The notes under the pieces were generated by a model. That model saw nothing but the letters and a program-made list of their open reading frames with translations, was not told the origin of the DNA and searched no databases. From assembly GCA_903825395.1 (NCBI GenBank), contig CAIKAF010000015.1:1-64000 (forward strand): a stretch of 64,000 bases of DNA. The letters are read 5' to 3'. This document shows positions 14,190 through 40,623 of the stretch, piece after piece (within the stretch, counting starts at the first letter, position 1; the number at the start of each line of letters is the position of its first letter). The position numbers and the translations under genes are program-made. This DNA is from an uncultured Flavobacteriales bacterium. GTDB lineage: Bacteria > Bacteroidota > Bacteroidia > CAIKAF01.

Positions 14190-14321
14190 TCGGGGCAAAC
14201 CTACGTGTTTGCCCGGCAAAATGGGGCATACCTACGTGTTTGCCCGGCCTGGCAAAATTGGGGCAAACACGTAGGTTTGCCCGGCCCGGAAAAATTGGGG
14301 CAAACACGTAGGTTTGCCCCG
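14190..14321. repeat. Four-copy palindromic repeat, GGGCAAAC-type
   Basis: Four copies of an imperfect palindrome, GGGCAAAC or GGGCATAC joined by a short CTACGT/ACGTAG spacer to GTTTGCCC. They begin at about 14192, 14223, 14260 and 14297. The first two and the last two are in opposite orientation, so the block as a whole is a large inverted repeat. Related motifs occur at 15553-15580 and 44871-44940. Confidence 0.85.
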
Positions 14322-25298: not shown

Positions 25299-25341
25299 GA
25301 ACATATACTGGTCTAAATTCTTCAGTTGAGGGGATTAATCC

Positions 25342-25349
25342 TACCTTTG
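25342..25349 (+). promoter_or_regulatory. Putative -7 element TACCTTTG for the rluB-like gene
   Basis: Exact TAnnTTTG match 16 bases upstream of ATG 25365. Confidence 0.45.
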
Positions 25350-25364
25350 CTGAAATATAGAACG

Positions 25365-27239
25365 ATGGAATCGAAAAAAGGGCCGGGCAGAACCCGGATA
25401 ACGGGGAGCCGCAACCAGTCAGCCCCCACCGGAGCAGGCCGACCAAAACGCAGAGAAGACGATACGTTTAAAGGTAGCTCAGAACGGAGCTATGCACGCA
25501 AAAAATCAGAAGGTACAGAAGGCGAGCGACCAGCGCGCCGAAGCAGGATGGTAAGTAAGGATTACAGTCCCCGACCAGAACGGGATTCAAACTCGGAACG
25601 GCCTAGGCGTTCTGCTTCGAATTTTAATCGAGATGACCGTCCTTCATTTGGGCCAAGAAAAACAGGTTTTGGGGGAGCGCGCCGTTCTGAGGATCGGCCG
25701 GCACGACCATTTTCTGGTTCCGACAGAAAACCGGCCGGGAATCGGCCAGCACGACCCTATTCTAAACCCTCAGGCGAAGGCTCTGACCGGCCAAAACGGT
25801 TTTCGAAAGACCGGAACGATAGAGGCTTTTCTGCACCCTCAGGCGACGGCGCAGACCGTCCAAAACGGTTTTCGAAAGACCGCAACGATAGAGGCTTTTC
25901 CTCACCCTCAGGCGAGGGTGCAGACCGTCCAAAACGGTTTTCAAAAGACCGCGACGGAGACAGAGGCTTTTCCGCCAGACCTAAGCGTTCTTTTGATTCT
26001 AAAGGAGGAGAAGACAGAGAGCGAAAGCCAAGACCATTCGCAGGAAGAGATGCGCGGCCTGCACGCAGCAACGATCGCCCAAGTTATCCAAGAAAACCTT
26101 TTGGAGCAAAATCAGGAGATCAAGACTCCCCTCGCCCATCGAGATTTCCAAATAAACCATCCACACGAAGTTCCAGCTTCTCAGATAAACCCCGTAGAAA
26201 TTACGAGGGCGATGCCGAAAGAAAACCAGGCAGATCGTTCGAAAAGAGAAGTTTTAACCGAGATTCTCCAAGGTTTGAATCCTCCGGCCCGAAAGAAAAG
26301 AGAGGGTATTCAAAAACCGCAGAAGGAGAAGATAGACCAAAGCGCAGATTGGAAAAACGGAGTCCTAGCGGTTCTTCTGAATTTTCCGATCGACCAAAGC
26401 GCAGTTTTGAAAAGGAAAGTTCAAGCACAGATTCTGCACCTTCAACACGCAGAAAACCACCGGTAGATCGTCCCGGGAAAACCTATGGGCATAACCGCAG
26501 ACAAAACCGAGAGGCAGCAGAAGTTGGAATTAAAGGCATCCGCTTAAATAAATACTTGGCCAATGCTGGGTTGTGCAGCCGCCGTGAAGCAGACCAATTC
26601 ATCCAATCGGGAGTGGTAGAAGTAAACGGAGAAATCATCACCGAACTGGGCCATAAAATTCAGTCCGATGATGTTGTACTGTTCGGAGGAAAACGAGTAA
26701 ACGGAGAAACACCCACCTACGTTTTATTGAATAAACCCAAAGACTACCTCACAACCACAAAAGACCCTCAACAGCGTAAAACGGTTATGGAATTGGTTGG
26801 AACATTGACTCGAATGCGGGTATACCCCGTAGGTCGATTGGATCGTCAAACCACCGGTGTTTTAATGCTCACCAACGATGGAGATTTGGCCGATCGCTTG
26901 TTGCATCCCTCTAGGAAAATCAGCAAAGTGTACACCGTCGAGGTTGATAAGCGATTTAAAGTGAAAGATTTAAAAGCACTTCAAAAGGGCATTGAATTGG
27001 AAGATGGTTTTATTCAGCCCGATGAAATCAGCATGGTGGAAGGCGGTACAAACACCCAAATCGGAATTAAAATCCATTCCGGCCGCAACCGAATCGTCCG
27101 CCGAATGATTGAACATTTTGGATACCAAGTCTTGAAGTTAGACCGAGTGATGTTCGCCGGATTAACCAAAAAAGGACTTAAACGAGGTCAAGCTCGGTTT
27201 TTGACGGAAGAAGAAGTAGTCATGCTTCGACGCCAATAA
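25365..27239 (+). CDS. rluB: 23S rRNA pseudouridine synthase, RluB/RsuA family, with a long basic N-terminal tail
   Basis: The last ~245 residues form a normal enzyme. An S4 RNA-binding domain begins near residue 389 (IRLNKYLANAGLCSRREADQFI). The catalytic domain has the active-site aspartate 493 in VGRLDRQTTGVLML and GRNRIVRRM near the end. The first ~380 residues are low-complexity and rich in Arg, Ser, Lys, Asp and Pro. They include three near-identical 23-residue units at 25785-25970 (RPKRFSKDRNDRGFS and PSGEGAD). Such tails occur in Bacteroidota pseudouridine synthases but this one is long. It probably contacts RNA; that is inference. ATG 25365 follows a promoter element, and the frame upstream of it is not family-like. 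Confidence 0.92.
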   Translation: MESKKGPGRTRITGSRNQSAPTGAGRPKRREDDTFKGSSERSYARKKSEGTEGERPARRSRMVSKDYSPRPERDSNSERPRRSASNFNRDDRPSFGPRKTGFGGARRSEDRPARPFSGSDRKPAGNRPARPYSKPSGEGSDRPKRFSKDRNDRGFSAPSGDGADRPKRFSKDRNDRGFSSPSGEGADRPKRFSKDRDGDRGFSARPKRSFDSKGGEDRERKPRPFAGRDARPARSNDRPSYPRKPFGAKSGDQDSPRPSRFPNKPSTRSSSFSDKPRRNYEGDAERKPGRSFEKRSFNRDSPRFESSGPKEKRGYSKTAEGEDRPKRRLEKRSPSGSSEFSDRPKRSFEKESSSTDSAPSTRRKPPVDRPGKTYGHNRRQNREAAEVGIKGIRLNKYLANAGLCSRREADQFIQSGVVEVNGEIITELGHKIQSDDVVLFGGKRVNGETPTYVLLNKPKDYLTTTKDPQQRKTVMELVGTLTRMRVYPVGRLDRQTTGVLMLTNDGDLADRLLHPSRKISKVYTVEVDKRFKVKDLKALQKGIELEDGFIQPDEISMVEGGTNTQIGIKIHSGRNRIVRRMIEHFGYQVLKLDRVMFAGLTKKGLKRGQARFLTEEEVVMLRRQ

Positions 27240-34520: not shown

Positions 34521-34547
34521 GGGTTGAGAAAAATGGGGTTTTTGTGG

Positions 34548-34686
34548 GCGGCTGCGGGCTTTCACCGGTAGTCCGCGGTGGGCGGTGGCTGGCCCAGCGG
34601 GCTTGCGGTGGCTCCTAAAGTCGCCTCCGCGCCGCGCGGGCCAGGCCCCGTCCACCTTGCGGGCTACCGCGTTCAATCCCTGCCGC
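34548..34686 (+). repeat. Structured dispersed repeat, copy 5 (139 nt)
   Basis: Closing stem GCGGC/GCCGC. The inner stem pairs 34577-34595 with 34638-34656, 16 of 19 positions. Conserved blocks are GCGGGCTTTCACCGGTAGTCCGCGG, split for display as GCGGGCTTTCACC and GGTAGTCCGCGG, then GCGGTGGCTCC, GTCGCCTCC and GTTCAATCCCTGCCGC. It starts 27 bases after the S46 peptidase stop. Confidence 0.85.
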
Positions 34687-34716
34687 GGGCGTGGTTGTGA
34701 GGAAAACCGTATAATT

Positions 34717-35276
34717 TCAGGCTACAATAATATCACCCCTACGGGGTTTTAGTGTCGTGAAGGCCAATACAATTCTACAATAATGTCACCCCTACGGGGT
34801 TTTGGGGTGGGAATTCCTTGGTATTCCTACAATAATATCACCCCTACGGGGTTTTAGTGTCGTGAAGGCCAATACAATTCTACAATAATGTCACCCCTAC
34901 GGGGTTTGGTGTCGGGAATTCCTTGGTATTCCTACAATAATATCACCCCTACGGGTTTCTGATGTCTCGATCACCAATACTTTTCTACAATAATGTCAGC
35001 CCTATAATAATGTCAGCCCTACGGGGTTCTGATGTGAGGATGACCAACACCTTTCAATATTAATGTCAGCCCTATAATAATGTCAGCCCTACGGGGTTCT
35101 GGTGTCGGGATGACCAACACCTTTCAATAATAATATCAGGCCTACGGGATTTGATGGTGGGAATTCTTTGATTTTCTAAAAAAATTCACCTACAATAAAG
35201 TCCCCCCTACGGGGTTTGGGGTCGGGAATTCCTTGGTATTCCTACAATTATATCACCCCTACGGGGTTTGGTTGGG
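34717..35276. repeat. Tandem array of TACAATAAT-CCCCTACGGGG units
   Basis: About ten copies of TACAATAAT(A/G)TCACC followed by the palindrome CCCCTACGGGG and GTTT. Unit period is near 53 bases. Two linker types alternate (one containing GTCGTGAAGGCC, one containing GGGAATTCCTTGG), giving a higher-order period of about 105 bases in the left part. Copies decay and lose the palindrome towards 35000-35150 (for example TCAGCCCTATAATAATG). No gene is present. It is not a CRISPR, because the linkers repeat. Confidence 0.85.
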
Positions 35277-35439: not shown

Positions 35440-37008
35440 CTAAAACCCAACCACCACGCGACGCACCCAGCGTGGCCCTACCTTCAAAAAATACACCCCG
35501 GCCGGCAATTCCTCCACCTGTATGGTTTTACCTTCCTGTTCCACCCTACCCGATTTCCAAACTCGACCTAAACCGTCCTGCAGGGTAAATTCCGCGCCAG
35601 GCATTCCTGATTCCAGCTCCACATGAATTTGCTCTGTAGCCGGATTGGGGAACACCCGCCCTGAAAATTCCGGCAGAAGCTCCTGCCCCATCCAGCTGTC
35701 GGAACACACACTGCCCGTCCTGCGCTCGTCGTACTGAAACATGGCCCATTCAGGTCCTTGCCCCGGACCCAAATCAAAGGCAAATGCCCGGCCGTAATTC
35801 GACTGAAAGTTGGGGTACTTGGTATGGCCTGCCACAATCAAAGCATCGCGGCGACCGTCTCCGTTAAAATCACCCAGCACCGGAGCCGCCCCCACCTCCA
35901 TGGTGTCGCCGTACAGCGCTCCCAAATCAACCACAAACAACTCCTGACCTGTGTTGCCATTCAAACCCACAAAATGTCCGCCGGTGGTGCCAAAAAGCAC
36001 ATCCAGGCGTCCATCGTTGCTGACATCGGTTAAAGCGGCCCCGCGAAAGCTGCTGCCATATCCGGGCATGGTGTAGGCCCAGAGCTGTTGGCCTTGGGTA
36101 TTGAGGGCATACATGCGAAATCCACCGCCAAACACCAATTCGCAGTTGCCATCGCCGTTCAAATCGCCTACCGAAACGGGCGAACCCACATAGCCTACCG
36201 CATCGAAAGTCCATAAAACCGCACCGGTGCTGCCTTTTAATGCCCAGACTCGACCGCTGTAATCGCCCAGCACCAGGTCGGGAGCTCCATCGGCGTCAAG
36301 ATCGGTAACGGCGGTTCCGTGGTACACATAATCGTCCATGGGCATAGACCACATTTGTTGTCGGCTTACACCGTTGTAGGCATACACGCGGCTGCTGTCT
36401 GAAAAATTCCAGGTGGCCACCACAATATCTAATCGTCCGTCGGCATTTAAATCCACCAGCGTGGGAGCGGTTTGCACCCATGAATTCACATCAACCGCAA
36501 TTTCCCATTTTACGGCCCCGTTTTGGGGATTGATGCAGAGCAAATAGCCCCCAAATTGGCCATGCAAAAGTTCGGGCATGCCGTCGCCATCTACATCGCC
36601 CATGGTTGGCGGAGAATCCGAGCCGCGGGTGGGTGTGGACCATTTCAGCTGACCTGTATTGGCATCAAAGCAAAACGTAGTTGGGTTGCAGGACGAGGCT
36701 AGTACCACATCAAGGAGTCCGTCGCCATCCACATCGGCCAAGAGGGGGGCTGTATCGTTGCAGCCTTCGGCAAAGCCCGAGGCATCGAACGACCAGCGCA
36801 GGCTTCCGGAAGAATTGAGGGCATAGAGCATGCCGTCGTTTCGGTAGCAGCCAAAAAAAGCCTCTGGTTTTCCATCGCCATTGACATCGGCCAGGGCAGT
36901 TTGGCCAAAGGCATTGTCTTGGGTATCGAAGGTCCAGAGCAAATTGGGGGTTTGGGCCTGAAGCCTGCAGGCCCAGCACAATAGAATGGCAACAAACAAT
37001 CGGGTCAT
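35440..37008 (-). CDS. Secreted FG-GAP/VCBS-repeat protein with T9SS sorting domain
   Basis: 522 residues with a signal peptide (cleaved after LQAQ). It contains about eight FG-GAP-like calcium-binding loops of the form Dh(N/D)xDG (DVNGDGKPE, DVDGDGLLD, DVDGDGMPE, DLNADGRLD, DLDADGAPD, DLNGDGNCE, DVSNDGRLD, DFNGDGRRD), which predicts a beta-propeller. The C-terminus has the type A sorting domain (RVFPNPATEQIHVELE, LPAGVYFLKVG, ending RRVVVGF), so it is secreted by T9SS and anchored or released at the surface. Probably adhesive or ligand-binding; the ligand is unknown. A TATATTTG element lies at 37026-37033. Confidence 0.9.
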   Translation of the reverse strand: MTRLFVAILLCWACRLQAQTPNLLWTFDTQDNAFGQTALADVNGDGKPEAFFGCYRNDGMLYALNSSGSLRWSFDASGFAEGCNDTAPLLADVDGDGLLDVVLASSCNPTTFCFDANTGQLKWSTPTRGSDSPPTMGDVDGDGMPELLHGQFGGYLLCINPQNGAVKWEIAVDVNSWVQTAPTLVDLNADGRLDIVVATWNFSDSSRVYAYNGVSRQQMWSMPMDDYVYHGTAVTDLDADGAPDLVLGDYSGRVWALKGSTGAVLWTFDAVGYVGSPVSVGDLNGDGNCELVFGGGFRMYALNTQGQQLWAYTMPGYGSSFRGAALTDVSNDGRLDVLFGTTGGHFVGLNGNTGQELFVVDLGALYGDTMEVGAAPVLGDFNGDGRRDALIVAGHTKYPNFQSNYGRAFAFDLGPGQGPEWAMFQYDERRTGSVCSDSWMGQELLPEFSGRVFPNPATEQIHVELESGMPGAEFTLQDGLGRVWKSGRVEQEGKTIQVEELPAGVYFLKVGPRWVRRVVVGF

Positions 37009-37065: not shown

Positions 37066-37348
37066 GATGCCACGACGCCACCCCGTAGAGGCATATAATT
37101 ATATGCCTCGGCAAATGCCACGACGCCGCAATGGTGAGGCATATTGTTATATGCCTCCACATTTATGTTTCAAAACCCCACCGTAGAGGCATATAATTAT
37201 ATGCCTCCACAAATGCCACGACGCCCCAACGATGAGGCATATTGTTATATGCCTCTACATTTATGTTTCAAAACCCCACCATAGAGGCATATAATTATAT
37301 GCCTCCAAAAATGCCACGAGGCCGCAATGATGAGGCATATAATCCCTA
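37066..37348. repeat. Left half of a palindromic GAGGCATAT array
   Basis: Five palindromes built from GAGGCATATAA and its complement (first at 37088-37109, perfect) or GAGGCATATTG with TTATATGCCTC, plus a sixth cut short at about 37330-37343. They are spaced about 49 bases apart and alternate in type. Linkers ATGCCACGACGCCxCAAxG and TCTACATTTATGTTTCAAAA alternate. The truncated copy is followed by an AT-rich stretch and the orphan gene at 37476. Confidence 0.85.
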
Positions 37349-37475
37349 GGGATCCGAATTAAACCCTAATTTTGACCAAAGAACATCTTTCCTAATGCAA
37401 TTATTTTGAAATTAAAATCGTTAATTTCTAATTATCCATTTTTTAAATCAATTCAACATTATTAAATTTCCATTG

Positions 37476-38207
37476 ATGCTGCGTTTACTTTTCACTCTGG
37501 TTTTTATCCTCTTTTGGAAGGCACAAATTGGGCAAAAAATAACTATTGACACACTAATTATACCTCAAATCCATGAAAACCCTTTTAAACAAAAAGGGCA
37601 ACTGAAGTTCCCAATGTTTAAAACGGGGAATGCAGCGGTAGATCAAAAAATGAACACCGATTTAAAACGTCGTTTGACAAAAAATGCATTTCCATACCTT
37701 TCAACATTCTGGACATTGGTTTTTTGGGTTCACCCCAATATTTATATGGATTTCGAAGTTACCTATGTAAAAAATGGAATTATTTCATTTGCAATTCATC
37801 AGGAGGGTTGCGGAGCCTATTGTACTGCATTTACAGAACACTACACATACAATTACCTGACAGGAAACCTTTTAACCATCCATCAAATTATTGATACCAA
37901 GGGCCATTTTAAATCGGTTGTTTATGCCGATAAAGACAAGATAATTAAACAACACGTTAAAGAATTAAAAAAGCGCCTAATGGAAGAAGGTACTAATTTT
38001 AATCAAGGAGAATATGAAACGATTTTGGAATTCTGTCAATTCTGTGATGATTCTTTTGAAATAAGTGAATTTTCTCTCCATAACGACCATTTTAGACTAT
38101 TTAGTAGTTGCGCCTTTCCCAATGCAATTAAAGACCTGGAACCTAAAATTGTTTTAAAATATAAATATGCAAATTGGAAGAGCCATTTGAAAATAAATTT
38201 AATTTGA
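37476..38207 (+). CDS. AT-rich hypothetical secreted protein within a split repeat array
   Basis: 243 residues. A probable signal peptide (MLRLLFTLVFILFWKAQIGQ) precedes a single domain with mixed alpha/beta pattern, including VTYVKNGIISFAIHQEGCGAYC and HYTYNYLTGNLLTIHQII. This resembles the DUF3298/RsiV-like domain of some secreted proteins, but the match is not firm. The coding region is visibly more AT-rich than its neighbours. It lies between two halves of the GAGGCATAT array, so it may have been inserted there or may have been captured with it. ATG 37476 is used; an upstream TTG at 37473 adds one residue. Confidence 0.7.
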   Translation: MLRLLFTLVFILFWKAQIGQKITIDTLIIPQIHENPFKQKGQLKFPMFKTGNAAVDQKMNTDLKRRLTKNAFPYLSTFWTLVFWVHPNIYMDFEVTYVKNGIISFAIHQEGCGAYCTAFTEHYTYNYLTGNLLTIHQIIDTKGHFKSVVYADKDKIIKQHVKELKKRLMEEGTNFNQGEYETILEFCQFCDDSFEISEFSLHNDHFRLFSSCAFPNAIKDLEPKIVLKYKYANWKSHLKINLI

Positions 38208-38298
38208 AAGCTCTGAATGTTTTGCTGGCCTAAAATGCTGTTATAAGGAAATTTAATAAACAAACGCCACCCTAAAAAATCATTCAACACCCCAGCAT

Positions 38299-38523
38299 TG
38301 TAGATGCAAATAATTATATGCTTCAAAAATGCCACGACGCCCCAACGATGAGGCATATTGTTATATGCCTCTACATTTATGTATCAAAACCCCACCGTAG
38401 AGGCATATAATTATATGCCTCCACAAATGCCACGACGCCACAACGATGAGGCATATTGTTATATGCCTCCATAAATGCCACAATGCCCCAACGATGAGGC
38501 ATATTGTTATATGCCTCTACGGG
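38299..38523. repeat. Right half of the palindromic GAGGCATAT array
   Basis: One degenerate copy (GATGCAAATAATTATATGC) at about 38303, then four good palindromes near 38350-38371, 38399, 38447 and 38497, with the same linkers as the left half. The last copy abuts the recG stop codon. Confidence 0.85.
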
Positions 38524-40623
38524 TCATGAAATCATCGCCCAGGGCCCTTGGCTGCGTTCCCGAGCCTGCAAATAGCGGAGCAGGGCGGCATGCTCAGGCG
38601 CCTGCAACTCGGGGTCGCGCTCGATGATGTGCCACACTGCACTGCGTACCTGCTCCAGCACCGGTGCGTCTTCTACGAGGCTGGCCAGCTTGAACTGCAT
38701 TTCTCCACTCTGCCGAGTGCCTTCAATATCGCCGGGCCCCCTCAATTCCAAGTCTTTTTCCGCAATTTTAAAGCCGTCGTTGGTGGCCACCATCACCGCC
38801 ATGCGCTCCTTGGCTTCTTTGCTTAAATTCCTGCCGGTAAGCAGTATGCAGTAAGATTGCTCGGCCCCACGCCCCACCCGACCGCGCAGCTGGTGCAGCT
38901 GACTCAAGCCAAACCGCTCGGCACTTTCAATCACCATAACCGAGGCGTTGGGGACATTGACGCCCACTTCAATTACTGTGGTGGAAACCAGCACTTTCAC
39001 ATGCCCTTTTACGAATCGAGCCATGACACTTTCTTTGTCGGCCGGTTTCATTTGTCCATGCAGCACATCGGCCGGGATGTCGGGCAGGTGCTGCTTGAAC
39101 ACTTCAAACCCTTCCAGCATGTTTTTGTAATCCAGCTTTTTCGATTCGTCGATGAGGGGATATACCAAATAGATTTGCCGGCCGGCCTCTACCTGTTGCC
39201 GAATAAATCGGTACACTTCATTGCGCACTTCTTCGCCCTTGTGAATGGTGATGACGTTTTTTCGGCCGGGAGGCAATTCATCGATGACCGACACATCCAA
39301 ATCGCCATACAAGGTCATGGCTAAGGTACGGGGAATGGGCGTGGCAGTCATAACCAACACATGCGGTGGCAGGGAACGCGCTTTTTCCCAAAGCCGGGCG
39401 CGCTGTGCCACTCCAAAGCGGTGCTGCTCGTCAATGATGGCCATGCCCAGGTTCCGGAACTGCACCGCCTCTTCCAGCAAGGCATGTGTGCCCACCAGCA
39501 AGGCAATTTCGCCATTCTGTAAGGCCGCATGCAGTTTGATGCGGTCGGCTTTTTTGCTGCTTCCCGTCAATATTCCCACTTGAATGCCCAAGGGAGATAA
39601 CAGCTCAGATATGCCCAGAAAATGCTGCTGGGCAAGTATTTCGGTGGGAGCCAGCAAGGCCGTTTGAAAGCCGTTGTCCATGGCCATCAGGGCGGTTAAC
39701 ACCGCCACAACAGTTTTACCCGATCCCACATCGCCTTGCAGCAATCGGTTCATTTGCCGTCCGGATTTTACATCGGCGCGAATTTCTTTCAGCACCCGCT
39801 TTTGGGCATTGGTAAGGGCAAAGGGCAGATGCCTTTCGTAAAAGCCATGAAACATAGCGCCCAATTGAGGCAGAGGAATGCCGGGCTGAGTAGCCTGATT
39901 GCGTGCTTTGGTTTGCAGCATGCGGAACTGAGCCATGAACAGCTCTTCAAACTTGAGGCGGTACCGGGCGGCTTGCAAGGCCGTTTGATCGGGCGGAAAA
40001 TGAATCCAACGAAAGGCTTGGTCGCGCCCAATAAGGTTGTACCGATGCAACAGCGCCTCGGGCAGATTTTCCGGAATGGGCGCCGGAAGGCCCTCAATGA
40101 TTTGCTTTAGCAATCTACCAATGCCTTTGGGATCTAAGCCGATTTTTCGCAGCTTGTCGGAGCTGGGGTACATGGGGCTAAGTCCGGGCTGCAGGGCTTG
40201 GCCAGGCTGGAGCACCTCGAAATCGGGGTGCGACATGCCCGGTTGGCCTTTGTAAAAAATGGGTTTGCCCGCCACAATCAAAACCTGACCAAGCTGAAGC
40301 TTGTCATCCAGCCAACCCATGTTGCCGAACCAAGTAAGCTCCATGCTGCCGCTTTTATCGCGCAAGTGTATCGTAAAGCGTGATTTTCCCTTGCCGGGCA
40401 GCCATTCCTTGTGCTCAATGGCTCCGATGGATTGCACAAAAGACATGGATTCGCTGATAAGTCCGATGGGTTGAAAGCGGGTGCGGTCAACATAGCGGAA
40501 GGGGAAATGCGTCAGGGCGTCGGCATAGGTGTGCAGGCCCAGTTCTTTGGACAGCAACGCGGCCTTGGATGGCCCACAGCCCTTGACATAGGCTATTGAT
40601 GTGGATAAATAATGACCTTGCAC
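38524..40623 (-). CDS. recG: ATP-dependent DNA helicase RecG
   Basis: 699 residues. Branch-migrating helicase for stalled forks and Holliday junctions. N-terminal wedge domain (about 30-170, beginning with IAYVKGCGPSKAALL), then SF2 helicase motifs: Walker A GDVGSGKTVVA, DEQHRFG, TATPIPRTLAM and QLRGRVGRG. Start is a GTG at 40623 (MQGHYLSTSIAYVKG), which gives the usual N-terminus; no better ATG exists in frame. Transcribed away from the OmpA-like gene. Confidence 0.95.
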   Translation of the reverse strand: MQGHYLSTSIAYVKGCGPSKAALLSKELGLHTYADALTHFPFRYVDRTRFQPIGLISESMSFVQSIGAIEHKEWLPGKGKSRFTIHLRDKSGSMELTWFGNMGWLDDKLQLGQVLIVAGKPIFYKGQPGMSHPDFEVLQPGQALQPGLSPMYPSSDKLRKIGLDPKGIGRLLKQIIEGLPAPIPENLPEALLHRYNLIGRDQAFRWIHFPPDQTALQAARYRLKFEELFMAQFRMLQTKARNQATQPGIPLPQLGAMFHGFYERHLPFALTNAQKRVLKEIRADVKSGRQMNRLLQGDVGSGKTVVAVLTALMAMDNGFQTALLAPTEILAQQHFLGISELLSPLGIQVGILTGSSKKADRIKLHAALQNGEIALLVGTHALLEEAVQFRNLGMAIIDEQHRFGVAQRARLWEKARSLPPHVLVMTATPIPRTLAMTLYGDLDVSVIDELPPGRKNVITIHKGEEVRNEVYRFIRQQVEAGRQIYLVYPLIDESKKLDYKNMLEGFEVFKQHLPDIPADVLHGQMKPADKESVMARFVKGHVKVLVSTTVIEVGVNVPNASVMVIESAERFGLSQLHQLRGRVGRGAEQSYCILLTGRNLSKEAKERMAVMVATNDGFKIAEKDLELRGPGDIEGTRQSGEMQFKLASLVEDAPVLEQVRSAVWHIIERDPELQAPEHAALLRYLQARERSQGPWAMIS

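Follow-up and report, generated by a model that had tools for sequence, protein, structure and literature searches.

REP/BIME arrays, runs of small DNA hairpins of a mobile type, are a kind of repeat known from many bacteria. REPs are non-autonomous elements, and RAYT (TnpA_REP) enzymes act on them in the form of single-stranded hairpins. A GTAG-type REP is a palindrome of 20-40 bp with GTAG or GTGG at one foot, and such elements are extragenic, dispersed and present in many copies, usually more than 100 for the classic REPs. Many REP families, but not all, have a known cognate RAYT with copies of the same REP on its flanks. In TnpA_REP subclass 2.4, which is abundant in Bacteroidetes and Cyanobacteria, the hallmark is a coding sequence that contains REPs between its HuH motif and its Tyr motif, and this subclass also has 'double foot' GTAG..CTAC REPs (PMC6006769). 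The features of REP elements in the BIME/REPIN arrangement have been described previously (PMC3733652, PMC6006769).

The locus analyzed here lies between recG and a gene for an FG-GAP/beta-propeller protein, within a 64-kb stretch of DNA that we refer to as the window. Its features are as follows.

35440-37008, minus strand: FG-GAP/beta-propeller protein carrying a Por secretion tail, encoded by a gene that has the array on its 5' side.
37066-37343, unstranded: left half of the REP/BIME array, with five complete, alternating REPs, linkers of ~26-28 nt and, at the right end, a sixth REP of which the first 12 nt are present.
37085-37109, plus strand: REP with its GTAG head on the plus strand and centre ATAATTAT.
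37183, 37281 (ATAG head), 38300 (degenerate) and 38397: further REPs of the plus type, centre ATAATTAT.
37234-37258, minus strand: REP with its GTAG head on the minus strand (CTAC at the right foot) and centre ATTGTTAT.
37136 (GTGG head), 38350, 38448 (ATGG head) and 38496: further REPs of the minus type, centre ATTGTTAT.
37183-37258, plus strand: REPIN-like REP doublet with heads outward, folding into a single long hairpin.
37344-38282, unstranded: AT-rich segment, apparently inserted, ~0.94 kb and ~32% GC, with no detectable terminal inverted repeat.
37476-38207, plus strand: intact ORF of 243 aa with an N-terminal hydrophobic, signal-peptide-like helix and a predicted DUF4163-DUF3298 (RsiV-like) fold.
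38283-38523, unstranded: right half of the array, with a decayed linker (38283-38299), a degenerate REP (38300-38324) and four REPs, ending beside the recG stop codon.
38524-40623, minus strand: recG, with the array directly 3' of it.

The original prediction described one 22-base palindrome in two arrays around an AT-rich gene, and this was borne out. The palindrome GAGGCATATNNTTATATGCCTC occurs ten times, at 37088-37305 and 38303-38517, where chance predicts 0 copies; ten copies lie within three mismatches of GAGGCATATAATTATATGCCTC in the whole window, all of them inside 37088-38517, and dinucleotide shuffles gave none. Left-group palindromes start at 37088, 37136, 37186, 37234 and 37284, and the group closes with a half-palindrome, GAGGCATATAAT, at 37332-37343. 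The right group opens with a degenerate copy, GATGCAAATAATTATATGCTTC, at 38303, followed by copies at 38350, 38400, 38448 and 38496, so the truncated left end and degenerate right start that had been noted are also real. The linkers, previously called identical, are near-identical, and two of them alternate (L1, CACAAATGCCACGACGCCCCAACGAT; L2, ATTTATGTTTCAAAACCCCACC). Since the two linkers alternate along with two centre variants of the palindrome, the true array unit is a dimer of ~98 bp, in which REPs are spaced ~49 bp apart and flip orientation each time, giving a dimer period of 98 bp.

The head, at one foot of the palindrome, is GTAG or GTGG in most units and is degenerate at 37281 (ATAG) and 38448 (ATGG). 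In one centre variant, GTAG stands at the left foot; in the other, the head is at the right foot of the opposite strand and is mostly GTAG or GTGG, and the array units are therefore head-out doublets. Each 98-bp dimer holds two inverted REPs, and when 37183-37280 was folded as single-stranded DNA, one long hairpin was obtained (z -7.5; 0 of 200 shuffles). Folding of each REP pair into one long hairpin identifies a BIME/REPIN array. The palindromes are GTAG-headed REP superfamily elements in a BIME/REPIN arrangement, built of parts of known kinds. A CRISPR array was ruled out because two linkers recur in alternation in place of unique spacers of constant length, and an Rfam search returned chance-level matches only.

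The array resembles E. coli BIME-2 arrays and Pseudomonas REPINs in its alternating REPs, two alternating linkers, tandem amplification and doublet hairpin, but its stem and linkers are lineage-specific and it is interrupted by a gene. Like the GTAG-headed REPs associated with RAYT subclass 2.4 (PMC6006769), its units have a long perfect stem with a GT[AG]G head at the foot, 'double foot' forms (GTAG..CTAC) occur among them, and the genome has RAYTs with REPs flanking the gene and in frame inside it; the array differs from those REPs in that no cognate RAYT for its stem, GAGGCATAT, was found in the genome, and in its low copy number. The exact REP type was found at three intergenic loci, namely the array and a pair at each of two sites on contig C19, fewer copies than the more than 100 usual for classic REPs, and a wider set of related palindromes is present in the genome. 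The cousins at the C19 sites (C19:8.6k and C19:95.8k) read GAGCCATAT and GAGGCGTAT. Stem changes between loci are compensatory, with 21 cells changed on both sides and 0 of 500 shuffles reaching 21, in a test that is partly circular because the sequences were picked as palindromes. The array palindrome and its C19 cousins fit a series of RAYT stems with compensatory stem changes.

Two RAYT-type (TnpA_REP) genes and one ordinary IS200-type transposase gene were found in this genome. The RAYT ORF on C5 matched the REP_Tyr_transpos model NF047646 (E 3.6e-15) and showed a weak match to the solved TnpArep 4er8 (E 0.0022), and the ORF on C26 matched NF047646 with an E of 7.6e-19. The C5 gene carries GTAGAGACGCAC..GTGCGTCTCTAC palindromes on its flanks and in frame within the gene, and the C26 gene carries GGGGC-type palindromes, CAGGGGCAGAC..GTCTGCCCCTG, inside its reading frame. 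Both genes have REPs in frame between the HuH and Tyr motifs, as in subclass 2.4; their NF047646 matches score below the curated cut-off. The RAYTs of related genomes (L116:1383-2229 on C5 of G001, L115, L127, L120 and L124) contain one to several in-frame REPs, in one region after the HuH motif; those of G001 were detected by protein search. Their palindromes are GTAGAGACGCAA, GTAGGGACGTTG or GTAGAGACGGAA, each RAYT having its own stem, most built on a GTAGAGACG or GTAGGGACG base. In G005, no RAYT was found, and this genome had the fewest model matches. Thus, a BIME-type REP array and RAYTs with REPs inside the gene, with stems that differ between RAYTs, are documented here in an uncultured Bacteroidota genus, which should be useful for studying the joint change of REP stems and RAYTs. 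Separately, a 37-bp tandem repeat at 14211-14319 of the window contains a GGGGCAAACACGTAGGTTTGCCCC palindrome that is similar to those carried within the RAYT gene on C26.

No RAYT with the exact stem of the array was found in this genome or among the RAYTs of its relatives, and the palindromes of the RAYT genes here have other stems (GAGACGCAC, GGGGCAGAC), so that a RAYT flanked by the same REP is not part of this set. A palindrome search of 84,980 genomes found GAGGCRTAT palindromes mostly as single copies in distant MAGs; no RAYT-motif ORF lay in the retrieved DNA, and this search therefore gave no cognate RAYT. Because a RAYT with a matching stem is missing, the spread of the array's stem type by a RAYT is something we infer. 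The missing cognate, together with the position directly 3' of recG, where the hairpins would form in the transcript, is what could be expected if the palindromes were locally amplified regulatory or structural repeats (recG terminators, or gyrase or protein binding sites) and not RAYT-linked REPs. We consider this quite improbable: the hairpins are not followed by a T-run, and the GTAG/GTGG heads, outward doublets and sister REPs at a RAYT locus form the RAYT-REP pattern. Moreover, the palindromes could serve in regulation and still have originated as REPs.

The gene between the two halves of the array was correctly described as unusually AT-rich. Its GC content of 33.1% (GC3 30%) is the lowest among 32 large non-overlapping ORFs in the window, which have a mean of 48% and a next lowest value of 38.9%. 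It had also been called an orphan, which is not entirely accurate, since a sample of 395 genomes of the class contained matches in 10 genomes besides this one, in scattered families and with best identities of 28-38%, and its predicted fold is of the DUF3298/RsiV type. The gene was not found in five other genomes of the genus, among which the absence from G003 is not informative because an assembly gap falls at the array region. With a GC content of 33% against 48% and a patchy distribution, the gene looks foreign.

A Pfam search of the gene product brought no family to the cut-off (PdaC, PF13739, fell below it with an E of 0.039). An AF2 model built from nine sequences (pLDDT 84.9) had its best PDB matches with 3cyg, 3s5t, 5jen and 4e72, and the fold is shared with RsiV (5jen), BF2082 (3s5t) and PA4972 (4e72) at a Foldseek probability of 1.00, although sequence identity to the DUF4163-DUF3298 proteins is 11-15% and no separate anti-sigma part is seen in the product. 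The model thus predicts a two-domain DUF4163-DUF3298 (RsiV-like) fold, and the product is probably secreted or located in the periplasm. RsiV itself is a lysozyme-binding protein. Within the AT-rich segment, a 17-nt direct repeat (94%) is located at 37387-37403 and 38114-38130, a score matched by 5 of 1000 shuffles; the copy at 37387-37403 reads FPNAI, like the C-terminal part of the gene itself, and is perhaps the remnant of a second gene copy.

The original prediction offered two possibilities, an array broken by the gene or an array carrying it as cargo, and the first is likely the better one. At the left edge of the segment, the array stops mid-palindrome, after 12 nt of a REP, and at the right edge a decayed L2 linker (TTCAACACCCCA, compared with TTCAAAACCCCA) precedes a decayed REP. 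The succession of REPs and linkers keeps its register across the segment, with ~20 bp of array missing, the register being a weak test that chance alone would pass an estimated one time in two to four. Neither a terminal inverted repeat at the ends nor a transposase was found at the insert. Because the register is kept, ~20 bp are missing and the ends have no inverted repeat, a single array interrupted by illegitimate insertion is the best reading, and we assign a probability of about 0.7 to the view that GTAG-superfamily REP doublets amplified 3' of recG and that a foreign AT-rich passenger gene then entered the pre-existing array. According to this scheme, an array of outward-headed REP doublets would first have grown by tandem amplification immediately 3' of recG, and once it was in place, ~0.94 kb of AT-rich foreign DNA with one gene would have entered in the middle of a REP, its entry removing ~20 bp of the array. 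The missing bases and the lack of detectable terminal inverted repeats suggest that the DNA came in by illegitimate recombination or during repair at a hairpin, and the gene would be a passenger and no functional part of the array. A foreign gene that interrupts such an array is a small example of the relation between REPs and genome plasticity.

The alternative of a cargo-carrying array found no support: REPs of the same type at C19:8.6k, C19:95.8k and the C5 RAYT locus do not flank the gene, and no REP-like array was found near its homologues at eight loci in other genomes. A mobile cassette with the palindromes as its ends was rejected because there are no terminal inverted repeats, the gene and array do not occur together elsewhere, and the homologues are without arrays. 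An integron/attC cassette appears unlikely, as there is a single gene and no recurring gene-palindrome unit.

The same site was compared in related genomes. Neither the gene nor the array is present in G001 and G005, in which recG is 90% identical, which implies either a gain of both on the lineage that holds this genome (G000) and G003 or a loss in the others. In G003 (recG 99%), the array is present, at least its right end, and the contig ends inside it. None of the relatives was found to carry the array intact and free of the gene.

A second interrupted array was found on C39 of G001 (L103:1645-2525), adjoining an aspS-like tRNA-synthetase gene (named by eye from the sequence). There, copies of one REP type, with linkers common to the two sides, border a segment of ~0.88 kb at each end, and the segment contains a broken zeta-toxin-like ORF with an internal stop (Pfam Zeta_toxin, E 2e-5). 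At the orthologous place in G000 and G003, a 120-bp match to this segment lies next to other REP types on one side, a remnant suggesting that the segment there may predate the REPs. This case lends some credit to a gene-first order at recG as well, in which the AT-rich gene was first at the junction of recG and the FG-GAP gene and REP doublets later settled and amplified on both sides, or the array was copied across by recombination, and the identity of up to 96% between the left and right halves of the array is what recent copying would produce. However, separately grown arrays would more probably start and finish with whole REPs, and the mid-palindrome left edge, the decayed linker at the right edge and the continuing register all argue against this order, which we regard as unlikely.

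The presence of two interrupted arrays in one genus, at the recG site and on C39 of G001, could also suggest that REP arrays are places where AT-rich cargo lands or is exchanged, through RAYT or gyrase cutting, a REP-targeting IS, or homologous recombination between arrays. REPs are known targets of IS elements (PMC1525189), and in vitro, REP DNA is cut and joined again by TnpA_REP (PMC8266576). Nevertheless, this explanation has little chance of being correct, considering that no transposase or terminal inverted repeat was found at the insert, that the homologues of the gene elsewhere are without REPs, and that no further gap of ~1 kb, except at RAYT loci, was seen among the listed REP clusters. 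Two interrupted arrays are not enough to establish that genes accumulate in REP arrays. The broader proposal, that the REP/BIME arrays of this genus are preferred sites for the capture or exchange of short AT-rich foreign genes (RsiV-like, zeta-toxin-like) by RAYT cutting or array recombination, is accordingly a speculative one that we doubt strongly; if gene capture in REP arrays were systematic, it would be of wider interest.

Other repeats were observed in the window. A second hairpin-bearing type lies 2 kb to the left of the REP array, as a tandem array at 34722-35144 with 53/105-bp and 70-bp units around CTACAATAATATCACCCCTACGGGGTTTT. A GC-rich intergenic repeat of ~150 bp with no Rfam match, at 34539-34691, has ~40 scored copies in each of G001, G003 and G005, mostly at 82-92% identity, and 236-253 first-look candidates per genome of 2.4-2.5 Mb. 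Finally, three copies of a 69-bp tandem repeat are located at 25766-25975, within a large ORF (25326-27239).
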